A DNA stretch of 42,837 nt from a virus: positions 1 to 42,837 of the IMG/VR virus record IMGVR_UViG_3300010160_000086; one strand, written 5' to 3'. The position numbers were made by a program, and so were the translations under genes. The notes below the pieces were generated by a model. The model searched no databases, had not been told where the DNA came from, and was given only the letters and a program-made list of their open reading frames with translations. Shown here piece by piece: positions 5,091-18,408 of the stretch (positions are counted from its first letter, which is position 1; each line of letters begins with the position of its first letter).

Positions 5091-5246
5091 TTAAACTGAA
5101 TACCAGAGGTCTATTTTGTAGTCTTCTTTAAATGTGCCGCATACAGGACAAATAAAGTTGTCGGATAATTCTTCCCAAACACCTTCTTTTTCCTCATTAT
5201 GTATATGTTCACAAGTCGTACATATATGATTAAGTTCAACAGACAT
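5091..5246 (-). CDS. Rubredoxin-like protein
   Basis: 51 residues from the ATG at 5246, preceded by AGAGG at good spacing; a longer reading from 5273 would run into the tRNA-like gene and is less likely. Seen: two metal-ligand knuckles, C9-T-T-C12 and C33-P-V-C36-G, 20 residues apart, with W24 and F31 between them. This matches the rubredoxin/rubrerythrin iron (or zinc) ribbon CxxC...CPxCG at nearly the usual length of about 52. A one-electron carrier or a zinc ribbon is possible; no partner is visible. It lies inside a tRNA unit, 1 nt from tRNA-Met, downstream of the 5423-5451 promoter. Confidence 0.82.
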   Translation of the reverse strand: MSVELNHICTTCEHIHNEEKEGVWEELSDNFICPVCGTFKEDYKIDLWYSV

Positions 5247-5262
5247 AATAGTACCTCTAAAA

Positions 5263-5330
5263 TGGAGCGGCAAGACTGATTCCCACAGCCGTCACAAGAG
5301 GGTATCTTGTGATGTTATTACATTTGCCGC
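5263..5330 (-). ncRNA. Aberrant tRNA-Gly-like RNA (ACC loop)
   Basis: 68 nt including an encoded CCA. Seen on the minus strand: a perfect 7 bp acceptor GCGGCAA/TTGCCGC, discriminator T, then CCA. The anticodon arm ACAAG/ATACCCT/CTTGT can extend to 7 bp with a smaller loop; read with T33 it shows ACC. A 5 bp T stem GGCTG/CAGTC carries loop TGGGAAT instead of TTCRANT. The D arm is reduced to ATGT/AATA/ACAT without the GG pair. G1-C72, C2-G71, G3-C70, C35, C36 and U73 are all glycine identity elements. It lies between the rubredoxin-like gene and a normal tRNA-Gly with a similar acceptor. It could be a decaying tRNA or a specialised non-ribosomal tRNA. Confidence 0.65.
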
Positions 5331-5338
5331 ATAAAACT

Positions 5339-5412
5339 TGGAGCGGAATGCCAGAATCGAACTGACAACAGGAGATTGGAAATCTCCAGTTTTACCATTA
5401 AACTAATTCCGC
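5339..5412 (-). tRNA. tRNA-Gly (TCC)
   Basis: Acceptor GCGGAAT/ATTCCGC, D arm GTTT/AAAC, anticodon arm GGAGA/TTTCCAA/TCTCC giving TCC, T loop TTCGATT, discriminator T and encoded CCA. A normal, complete tRNA-Gly, 8 nt from the tRNA-like gene and first in the unit driven by the promoter at 5423-5451. Confidence 0.95.
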
Positions 5413-7105: not shown

Positions 7106-7321
7106 TACCATATTAAAATACATTAGGGTGTGATTGTCGTTCCAGAACTTCATCTGGCTTCTCACGGCTTCGTCTGCCGATAAGACAATCTCCACATTAC
7201 AGGCCAATTTGTTTTCCAGCACCGTCGGATGGCTTCATGTAAACTTAGCGAGATGATGCGGCCATCACGTGCTCCTAAGTCACCTACTGGAATTGGTAAC
7301 CCAATGTATTTTAATATGGTA
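7106..7321 (-). ncRNA. Structured RNA closed by a 19 bp stem that includes the tRNA-Glu 3' end
   Basis: A perfect 19 bp inverted repeat (7106-7124 with 7303-7321) encloses 178 nt. On the minus strand its first bases are the last acceptor base, discriminator and CCA of tRNA-Glu, so the mature tRNA and the intact stem cannot coexist. Internal structure: GATTGTC/GACAATC closing a three-way junction with CCAGA/TCTGG and CGGC/GCCG hairpins, plus TGATG-CGGC-CATCA and a long-range CCAAT..TCCAG with CTGGAATTGG pairing. No credible ORF. Candidate processed stable RNA, or a folding switch for tRNA-Glu maturation. Confidence 0.6.
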
Positions 7322-7392
7322 CTCGGTGGGGGAATCGAACCCCTCCTTACTGCCGTGAAAGGGCAGTGTCCTAACCGATAGACGAACCGAGC
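7317..7392 (-). tRNA. tRNA-Glu (TTC)
   Basis: Anticodon arm CTGCC/CTTTCAC/GGCAG gives TTC. Acceptor GCTCGGT/ACCGAGT (G-U at 1-72), discriminator A, encoded CCA. First tRNA after the duplicated promoters. Its 3' end is shared with the stem of the following structured RNA. Confidence 0.94.
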
Positions 7393-7422
7393 ATCTGAAT
7401 CGATTTCTCAATTCATGGATGA

Positions 7423-7450
7423 ATTATAACACAACTGGAAGACTTGTCAA
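7423..7450 (-). promoter_or_regulatory. Sigma70 promoter A, tRNA cluster (proximal)
   Basis: Perfect TTGACA (7450-7445), 16 bp, perfect TATAAT (7428-7423) on the minus strand, about 30 nt before tRNA-Glu. The palindrome GTTGTAAGATTACAAC (7458-7473) starts 8 nt upstream of the -35, a possible operator. Confidence 0.9.
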
Positions 7451-7509
7451 CCAGACTGTTGTAAGATTACAACAATTTTTTATGTACTGATTTCTCAATT
7501 CATGAATGA

Positions 7510-7538
7510 ATTATAAGTCATTTCATACACCTTGTCAA
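7510..7538 (-). promoter_or_regulatory. Sigma70 promoter B, tRNA cluster (distal)
   Basis: Perfect TTGACA (7538-7533), 17 bp, perfect TATAAT (7515-7510) on the minus strand. Copy of promoter A; palindrome GTTGTAAAAATACAAC at 7546-7561 has the same offset from the -35. Confidence 0.9.
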
Positions 7539-7581
7539 CCAGTTTGTTGTAAAAATACAACGTATACTTTAGTACTAACTT

Positions 7582-7657
7582 TGGAGTACGTGACAGGATT
7601 CGAACCTGCATTATACGGATTTGCAATCCGCTCCCTAGCCATTCGGGTCACACGTAC
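7582..7657 (-). tRNA. tRNA-Cys (GCA)
   Basis: Acceptor GTACGTG/CACGTAC, discriminator T (typical of Cys), anticodon arm GCGGA/TTGCAAA/TCCGT giving GCA, encoded CCA. Confidence 0.94.
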
Positions 7658-7663
7658 ATAAAT

Positions 7664-7740
7664 TGGTCGGAGTAGTAGGATTCAAACCTACGACCCTCTG
7701 GTCCCAAACCAGATGCGCTATCAGACTGCGCTATACTCCG
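7664..7740 (-). tRNA. tRNA-Pro (TGG)
   Basis: Acceptor CGGAGTA/TACTCCG, discriminator A, anticodon arm TCTGG/TTTGGGA/CCAGA giving TGG, encoded CCA. Confidence 0.95.
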
Positions 7741-7747
7741 AATAATT

Positions 7748-7821
7748 TGGCATTCCGCTACGGAATCGAACCGCAACTAAGAGTTTTGGAGACTCTTGTG
7801 CTACCACTACACCAGCGGAAA
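7748..7821 (-). tRNA. tRNA-Trp (CCA)
   Basis: Anticodon arm AGAGT/CTCCAAA/ACTCT gives CCA. Acceptor TTTCCGC/GCGGAAT leaves a U-U mismatch at 1-72; discriminator G and encoded CCA. D arm GTG/CAC. Confidence 0.92.
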
Positions 7822-7825
7822 TTAA

Positions 7826-7856
7826 AAAACCCTAGATTTTTTAGGTCTAGGGTTTT
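7826..7856 (-). terminator. Hairpin terminator, possibly bidirectional
   Basis: Perfect 11 bp stem AAAACCCTAGA (7826-7836) / TCTAGGGTTTT (7846-7856), loop 9 nt. On the minus strand the stem runs into TTTTTTAATTT, a good U tract; on the plus strand it runs into TTTTGTGTTT. It would end the 30-residue ORF / metallopeptidase transcript ahead of tRNA-Trp. Confidence 0.88.
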
Positions 7857-7886
7857 GTGTTTAGAATTTGTTAGAACTTTTTTTAG

Positions 7887-7979
7887 TTACTTTTCCTTTA
7901 CACAAAACCTGGTCGACCATGACTCATCACAATTGTGATAGCACGGTGTTGTCGGTAATGTGTTATTAAATTTTGTCAT
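7887..7979 (-). CDS. Possible 30-residue Cys-rich peptide
   Basis: Short ORF starting ATG ACA AAA, ending TAA. Seen: CYHNC then W and a third Cys (C13, C17, W21, C26) with H15 nearby, a metal-knuckle-like spacing; three cysteines plus His could bind zinc. A perfect late promoter TATAAATA ends 5 nt before its ATG, so the transcript would start almost at the ATG (leaderless); no Shine-Dalgarno is seen. A terminator follows 31 nt after the stop. A 14 nt palindrome ATCACAATTGTGAT (7926-7939) lies inside it. Not recognised; may not be translated. Confidence 0.4.
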   Translation of the reverse strand: MTKFNNTLPTTPCYHNCDESWSTRFCVKEK

Positions 7980-17139: not shown

Positions 17140-18408
17140 TTATCGACCAACTTGTGGTAAATATTTCGCTTTCGTGTCTTCCCATGATAGATAAATTAAA
17201 TCATCATAGAAAAGATTCTCATACGATACGTTGTTTTTCTTCTTCAACATTGAAATACGGCCTTTGGCGTACTTGGTTTTCCAAATCTCCGTCAACGTAT
17301 CGGTACTGGTATCAAATGATTTTACCAATTCGTTATCTTTAATTTTTTTACAAAGAAACTCATTAGTATTGTTATACAACGGACTAAAATAAATGCCACG
17401 TTGATGTTCTGTTCTTGTTAATGCTTTTGGTATGCCAAGTTTTGGATAAGCAAAATGTAAAGAACGATTCTTATGGTCACGTTTTAAAGGTAGACCTTGT
17501 TTGTTTTTGGCTTCCCACCACTCAAAGTATTTACGAGTATGTTCTTCTTTCAGCCATTCGAAAATCATCTTCTTTGTGGAACGGGAAGGTTCGAAAGCAA
17601 CTGAACCAGAAGAAAATCCCATCTTATTCCAATGTTCCAAACCATCATACTGAGAAAGACCACCGGACTTTGTGTTACCATAAAGTGAAGTAGTAGTAAC
17701 ACCAACAAGTGTATCTCCATATTTTTCTTTCCAATCTTTCTGAACGGTGTCAGATAAACATAACAAGGCAAGCAACTTGCCACCCATATAATTATAACCA
17801 AGTGGTTGTAATGGAACAATAGTAGAACCAATGGCAGTATGATTAATCATACCCTCTGAGGTCTTTACAGTTCTATCCCAACCAATCGATTTATCTCTTG
17901 GAGTCAAGTCCAAGAAATCGGAAGATATACAAATAACACCTAGATAATTTTTTGTAATCTCGTCTTCAATGGTATAAAATAAATTACGGCCAATATTACT
18001 ATTGTTCTTCATCGTGGAAGAAAAAGTACGAATAGCATTCCAAGTTTCTGCTAACTCACCATTATGTAATTTCAATACAGGTTTAAGTTTGGCATAATCA
18101 TCTGGCTCTTTTGGCATCCAGAACTTGGATTTAACTTTCTTAATAAGTAATTCTTGTTCTGGGTTTTCCCACTCAAAGGTCTGGTCACCAAACACATCCA
18201 TACGCATCTCACCAGGATATCTCTCTTTCACTTCACACCACTTTTGGTATAAGGTATACTCTCGGACATCCATCTTAGAGGCATAGGTTAAATCTTCTGT
18301 TAAGAATTTAACCAACTCATCTTTGTCTATATGTTTAAATGTATCAGGCGGGTTGGATTCAGACCAAACTCTCCATTGTTCTTCTACAAACTCAACAGGT
18401 GTCGCCAT
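17140..18408 (-). CDS. DruA/DUF4338-like protein, function unknown
   Basis: 422 residues. Seen: NYLGVICISSDFLDL followed by RDKSIGWD, then GYNYMGGKLLALLCLSDTVQKDWKEKYGD, LVGVTTTSLYG and YDGLEHWNKMGFSSGS. The run 'LGVI.S...RD..IGW', 'nylgsKlLal', 'DW..kYG' and 'W...G' follows the DUF4338 layout of the Druantia defence protein DruA, at a distance. The rest (first about 130 and last about 120 residues) I do not recognise. Similar genes occur in aquatic T4-like phages. Overlaps the deformylase start by 1 nt. A defence or counter-defence role is inference from the family name only. Confidence 0.55.
   Translation of the reverse strand: MATPVEFVEEQWRVWSESNPPDTFKHIDKDELVKFLTEDLTYASKMDVREYTLYQKWCEVKERYPGEMRMDVFGDQTFEWENPEQELLIKKVKSKFWMPKEPDDYAKLKPVLKLHNGELAETWNAIRTFSSTMKNNSNIGRNLFYTIEDEITKNYLGVICISSDFLDLTPRDKSIGWDRTVKTSEGMINHTAIGSTIVPLQPLGYNYMGGKLLALLCLSDTVQKDWKEKYGDTLVGVTTTSLYGNTKSGGLSQYDGLEHWNKMGFSSGSVAFEPSRSTKKMIFEWLKEEHTRKYFEWWEAKNKQGLPLKRDHKNRSLHFAYPKLGIPKALTRTEHQRGIYFSPLYNNTNEFLCKKIKDNELVKSFDTSTDTLTEIWKTKYAKGRISMLKKKNNVSYENLFYDDLIYLSWEDTKAKYLPQVGR

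Follow-up and report, generated by a model that had tools for sequence, protein, structure and literature searches.

A tRNA-Gly-like RNA within the tRNA array of the phage

The window, by which we mean the whole 42,837-nucleotide stretch of viral DNA that was analyzed (IMG/VR record IMGVR_UViG_3300010160_000086), contains an array of 11 tRNAs called by ARAGORN. Within this array a tRNA-Gly-like RNA lies 8 nt 3' of an ordinary tRNA-Gly(UCC) (Table 1), which is its probable ancestor via tandem duplication. The RNA is encoded on the minus strand, which an earlier note on this DNA had left unspecified, and reads GCGGCAA-ATGTAATAACATC-ACAAG-ATACCCT-CTTGT-GAC-GGCTG-TGGGAAT-CAGTC-TTGCCGC-TCCA from 5330 to 5263. 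Its acceptor helix is a perfect 7 bp and its anticodon is ACC. The cloverleaf was the minimum free energy fold (-25.1 kcal/mol, z = -3.9), equaled by one of 200 shuffled sequences. The structure described in the earlier note, with a 7-bp acceptor, U73, CCA, no GG in the D arm, and a TGGGAAT T loop, was right on every point. Directly 3' of the RNA, and before a tRNA-Met, the window encodes a rubredoxin-like Zn-ribbon protein of 50 aa (5091-5243).

The RNA was called neither by ARAGORN nor by Rfam, even at E <= 10, where the Rfam matches were noise. It lacks several marks of a canonical elongator tRNA (RF00005), namely a covariance model or ARAGORN call, G18G19 in the D loop, and a TTCRA T loop. 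The bacterial glycine identity set consists of U73, G1-C72, C2-G71, G3-C70, C35, and C36 (PMC9976931), and every one of these elements is present in the RNA.

Table 1. Features of the window discussed in the text, with the arms of the tRNA-Gly-like RNA listed separately.
Feature	Position	Strand	Description	Evidence
tRNA-Gly-like RNA	5263..5330	-	68 nt; G1 at 5330, CCA at 5265-5263	Sequence, fold; covariance model R1, 70.9 bits
Acceptor 5' strand GCGGCAA	5324..5330	-	G1-C72, C2-G71, G3-C70 identity pairs	Pairs 1-4 invariant and pairs 5-7 covarying in the family
Mini D hairpin ATGT-AATA-ACAT	5312..5323	-	Without GG	Three D pairs, each changed on both sides in the family
Anticodon arm ACAAG-ATACCCT-CTTGT	5294..5310	-	Base 34 at 5303, C35/C36 at 5302-5301; 32-38 paired, giving a 5-nt loop	
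T arm GGCTG-TGGGAAT-CAGTC	5274..5290	-	T54 and A58 retained; 55-56 are GG, not TC	T stem 99.7% paired in the family
Acceptor 3' strand TTGCCGC, U73, encoded CCA	5263..5273	-		Sequence
Ordinary tRNA-Gly(UCC)	5339..5412	-	Directly 5' of the RNA; comparison copy	
DruA/DUF4338 (PF14236) protein	17140..18408	-	GNAT-fold protein of 422 aa; candidate enzyme for using the charged RNA	Pfam E=1.4e-18; AlphaFold2 pLDDT 88

The RNA belongs to a conserved family

The window RNA belongs to a new conserved family, missed by ARAGORN and Rfam, of which viral contigs and prophages contain more than 100 distinct representatives. Two pattern scans of viral contigs and one of bacterial genomes gave 123 distinct family sequences after a pairing filter, and reading 3' of each tRNA-Gly(UCC) in relatives of the window's phage provided further members. 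ARAGORN called none of the 86 family sites. A covariance model built on seven ungapped members scored AT-rich phage members at 45 bits or more, against at most 43 for ordinary tRNA-Gly, and GC-rich prophage members at 30-42. Searching isolate phages by blastn with the RNA and 28 concatenated members as the query gave no match; the covariance model later found Psychrobacter phage vB_PmaS_Y8A.

Several other sequences were noted during these searches. The cyanophage candidate S-SCSM2R 180924 proved to be an ordinary tRNA-Gly, and weak pattern matches in Streptomyces, Nocardia, and others were dropped, their helices being broken. Genes of 74-77 nt resembling tRNA-Gly (L232 3399-3472, L247 2363-2436, L177 7076-7151 and 8129-8204, L198 3313-3388, and L191 1024-1100) have a normal D stem and a TGNRA T loop, and several have no D-loop GG; these genes, some of which adjoin DruA or Mom, are possibly less reduced relatives of the family. 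Candidate members, some with irregular stems, were also seen in Bacillota/Clostridia assemblies (L327 2608-2676 and 6741-6809, L283 2266-2333, L307 4087-4155, and L328 2313-2381). In a 190-kb viral contig, ARAGORN called a tmRNA (L021 2822-3207, tag ANDEMFALAA) adjoining tRNA-Gly genes.

Compensatory changes maintain the fold

Compensatory changes across relatives, which the earlier note had named as the check on function, were present in all four helices. Among 79 distinct sequences, in an alignment fitted to the model, 94.5% of base-pair cells were standard and 16 of the 21 pairs were changed on both sides; double-change cells numbered 469 against a shuffled mean of 133, and slid controls gave 38-53%. 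Because of that fitting, a second count without the pairing filter was added, on 47 distinct sequences of at most 71 nt whose sole selection criterion was GCGG...CCGCTCCA in the vicinity of a DruA or Mom gene. In this unfiltered set, acceptor pair 5 was kept in 47/47 sequences, pair 6 in 45/47, and the T stem pairs in 43-47 of 47, each with several pair types, and pair 7-66 was often mismatched (G.A). Pairs 1-3 were invariant in the 79 distinct rows, partly fixed by the search pattern, and the identity elements were also kept in Y8A and in members that synteny or the model, not the pattern, had turned up. The Y8A RNA starts with GCGU, so that only the first three acceptor pairs are common to the family as a whole. 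The earlier note's observation that the glycine identity elements are retained thus extends from the window sequence to the family.

The simple alternative raised in the earlier note, that the RNA is a decaying duplicate of the neighboring tRNA-Gly, draws on the adjacency of the two genes and their common acceptor start GCGG. It is rejected because of the compensatory changes in relatives, which span a deep family; one diverged copy at the same place (L050), for example, has the acceptor GCGGTGT/ACACCGC. In addition, the RNA is 100% identical in four IMG/VR contigs, two of which differ from the window in flanking coding sequence. With the covariation refuting it, we give decay virtually no chance.

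The features of decoding are not maintained

The elbow elements that the earlier note had reported lost from the window RNA, the D-loop GG and the TTC of the T loop, are lost in the family: D-loop G18G19 is gone, and the T loop has the consensus [T/A]GNRA, usually TGNRA, with T54 or A54 and with A58. In 78 of the 79 distinct rows, the bases at positions 32 and 38 make a standard pair, which may be UA, AU, GC, or CG. Since ordinary tRNA-Gly has U32-A38, this pairing alone is unremarkable, whereas the free exchange of pair types is unusual. In the unfiltered set of 47, positions 33/37 were mostly U/C or G/A (23 and 17 sequences), about one-third lacked U33, and base 34 varied freely (T26 C11 A8 G2); the window RNA itself has U33. 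Two contigs (L004 and L008) have a 6-nt anticodon loop.

These features bear on whether the RNA is a minimal yet ordinary tRNA-Gly that serves translation at glycine codons. Its anticodons do have the NCC form of glycine, and in many large phages it is part of a tRNA array, next to tRNA-Gly at 29 of the 86 sites. However, the free base 34, the frequent G at position 33, the 6-nt loops, the use of all four Watson-Crick types at 32-38, and the loss of elbow contacts argue against decoding, the RNA is often the sole tRNA at its locus and then adjoins DruA or Mom, and the window already has an ordinary tRNA-Gly(UCC) alongside. A translational role is accordingly very unlikely. A role outside translation, as the earlier note had suggested, is the best reading of the free base 34, the frequent loss of U33, and the missing elbow, and the pattern of conservation suggests that the RNA is probably a charged but nondecoding tRNA-Gly, as expected if selection acts on charging rather than on decoding.

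The RNA is linked to Mom genes

A Mom gene (PF25680) is adjacent to the RNA in 18/18 Sphingomonad prophage loci, where the adjacent gene matches PF25680 at E about 1e-65 and phrog_1384, "Mom-like DNA modification protein." Mom was also found alongside the RNA in L321 (Bradyrhizobium), L341, L368, L216, L198, L191, and L177, the last with two RNA-Mom units, and some of these RNAs are 72-77 nt long. In the isolate phage Y8A (OQ059336.1), two RNAs lie in tandem directly 3' of Mom (7125-7778), one at 7786-7853 and the other at 7858-7926 (L491 2114-2181 and 2186-2254). The Y8A publication reported zero tRNA genes and listed another Mom ORF elsewhere in the genome (PMC10434257). Independent replication of the linkage between the RNA and modification genes comes from these separate Mom lineages and from Y8A.

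The RNA-linked partners pass the PF25680 cut-off and have the fold of phage Mu Mom, which carries out adenine carbamoylmethylation: a structure model matched the Mu Mom crystal (PDB 8bv8) at E 5e-28 with 46% identity. Mu, unlike these phages, has no such RNA, and the RNA was absent from 10 of the 11 Mom isolate phages examined, Mu included. The RNA is therefore not obligatory for Mom, and if the RNA is a glycine donor for Mom, as proposed below, host Gly-tRNA would have to serve in those phages. Only 3 of 385 alphaproteobacterial genomes had PF25680 above the cut-off, indicating that the gene is mainly mobile. The window had no match to PF25680; its own protein is not a Mom, only a probably related GNAT.

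The RNA is linked to DruA/DUF4338 genes

Clustering of all ORFs near the RNAs revealed PF14236 (DruA/DUF4338) as the second recurring partner. The window DruA scored 67.5 bits against a curated cut-off of 27. Of the 86 sites, 28 lie no more than 200 nt from DruA at loci without other tRNAs, 29 adjoin tRNA-Gly, 10 adjoin another tRNA, and 19 do neither; the DruA-adjacent and tRNA-adjacent classes never coincide. In the DruA-adjacent class, the RNA lies 20-140 nt 3' of the PF14236 gene on the same strand. The window is of the tRNA-array class. A search with covariance model R1 of the 2 kb around the closest DruA relatives gave no RNA, because in this clade the RNA is about 12 kb away.

Among T4-like relatives, which were chosen by neighboring genes regardless of the RNA, DruA (PF14236) was present in 10/10 RNA-bearing records and in 2/17 records without the RNA (Fisher p=8e-6, which overstates independence, since the compared records are related). 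In the reverse direction, the RNA was present in 10/12 DruA records of at least 40 kb. Neither family was detected by Pfam in at least six RNA-bearing records (L228, L238, L244, L207, L336, and L222). The nearest named phages by DruA, the Pelagibacter phages Mosig (58%) and HTVC008M (51%), have DruA and no recognized RNA. At the corresponding place, HTVC008M (L486 4130-4190) and Mosig (L485 4655-4715) have a common intergenic block, AGTAGAACA, and a GCTGTGCGA..TGACGCA hairpin, which is perhaps a further reduced version of the RNA. The phage has another DruA paralogue, shorter at 370 aa, which is encoded beyond the window end and was seen on an identical contig (L082 9410-10519); most related records have both. 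The neighbors of the window DruA that were scanned are deformylase, SMC-like, and dGTPase-type genes, and no Druantia operon was seen.

The best PDB matches of the window DruA model were GNAT acetyltransferases, with probability up to 0.99 and E of only about 0.01, and DUF4338 has independently been called a GNAT domain (PMC10853773). An alphaproteobacterial protein matched PF14236 (1.8e-16) and PF25680 (5e-4) on overlapping residues; an alignment-to-alignment profile comparison of Mom with DruA was not significant. These results suggest that DruA and Mom are probably related, and phage DruA may likewise modify DNA.

The place of the RNA relative to its partner gene raises the alternative that it is a tRNA-like element within an mRNA, which would act as a processing signal or as a 3' cap for the upstream modification gene and would need no charging. 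Such an element would fit the fixed distance and common strand of the DruA-adjacent class. However, glycine identity is kept at separate sites (the acceptor, the discriminator, and C35/C36) that processing does not read, the RNA occurs in tandem copies, and in the window's clade it is located in a tRNA array far from the gene; we regard this explanation as quite unlikely.

The linkage is silent on the direction of use, and the charged RNA might instead serve as a target or as a decoy, with the partner GNAT acting on Gly-tRNA as the TacT and AtaT2 toxins do when they acetylate it, and the phage RNA titrating or tuning this activity. Both U73 and G71, which TacT reads, are kept in the RNA (PMC9976931), and the GNAT structures matched by the DruA model include one of TacT, at rank 48. 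On the other hand, several lineages have Mom as the partner, which modifies DNA and is not a tRNA-acetylating toxin, and the RNA comes after the gene as a cofactor might, often twice in tandem. We therefore consider a target or decoy role unlikely.

A proposed glycine donor for DNA modification

We think it somewhat more probable than not that the RNA, charged by host glycyl-tRNA synthetase, is a dedicated nondecoding glycine donor for GNAT-fold Mom or DruA enzymes that modify phage DNA. The more general proposal, that Mom and DruA/DUF4338 take glycine from charged tRNA and that many phages supply a purpose-built nondecoding tRNA-Gly, we hold at barely better than even odds. Host glycyl-tRNA synthetase would charge the RNA because every bacterial glycine identity element is kept. 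The small D hairpin, altered T loop, and stiff 5-nt anticodon loop would make it a poor substrate for EF-Tu and the ribosome, so that its glycine would stay free for a phage GNAT-fold acyltransferase, Mom in some phages and the DruA/DUF4338 protein in the window's phage. The acyltransferase would then move glycine from the RNA to adenine N6 of phage DNA, giving N6-glycyl-adenine, and the modified DNA would withstand host restriction.

The Mom product, alpha-N-(purin-6-yl)glycinamide or N6-carbamoylmethyl-adenine, carries a glycine-derived group on adenine. N6-glycyl-adenine (C7H8N6O) is an isomer of this product, and a rearrangement, in which the glycine amine attacks C6 via a five-membered intermediate, could convert one to the other. 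FemX and Leu/Phe-tRNA-protein transferase are precedents for enzymes with a GNAT-like fold whose donor is a charged tRNA; their acceptors are a cell-wall precursor or protein, not DNA. The Mom donor has only been predicted, as an acyl-CoA such as glycyl-CoA (PMC7824862), in a literature coverage that may miss recent or subscription work. A literature search outside subscription papers and preprints found no paper joining Mom or DUF4338 with tRNA.

The nonproteinogenic tRNA-Gly of Staphylococcus, which serves the peptidoglycan interpeptide, is a precedent for glycine diverted from translation. Like the phage RNA, for which such diversion is proposed, it keeps glycine identity and has altered D-loop GG and T-loop elements; unlike the phage RNA, which has a mini D hairpin of 3-4 bp, an anticodon pentaloop, and linkage to Mom and DruA GNAT proteins, it has a D arm of normal size and feeds FemX/A/B. 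This precedent would also suit donation of glycine to another nonribosomal acceptor, such as peptidoglycan, a lipid, a protein, or a small peptide. Yet the recurring functional neighbors are Mom and DruA, and clustering of neighboring ORFs found no Fem-like, ligase, or peptide-synthesis gene recurring near the RNA, making such an acceptor highly improbable. The peptidoglycan analogy drawn in the earlier note consequently did not hold for the partner, which belongs to the Mom or DruA families of GNAT-fold acyltransferases and is not a FemX-like transferase.

The proposed donor can be set beside two further systems. Minimal mitochondrial tRNAs with a reduced D arm share with the phage RNA a short D arm and a weak elbow, but they decode via dedicated elongation factors, whereas in the phage family U33 and base 34 are not conserved. 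DruA is known as a component of the Druantia type I defense system, where it accompanies DruBCDE, whereas the window protein, although a PF14236 member, is encoded by an apparently stand-alone phage gene paired with a tRNA-like RNA.

We know of no example of a tRNA devoted to DNA modification, which would join translation with epigenetic chemistry. Standard tRNA finders miss the family, as illustrated by Y8A, which was published without tRNA genes and has two copies beside one mom gene, and the RNA may be a marker for finding hypermodified phage genomes. If true, the proposed mechanism would answer the question of the Mom donor, predict a chemistry for the DruA family, and suggest a function for DUF4338.
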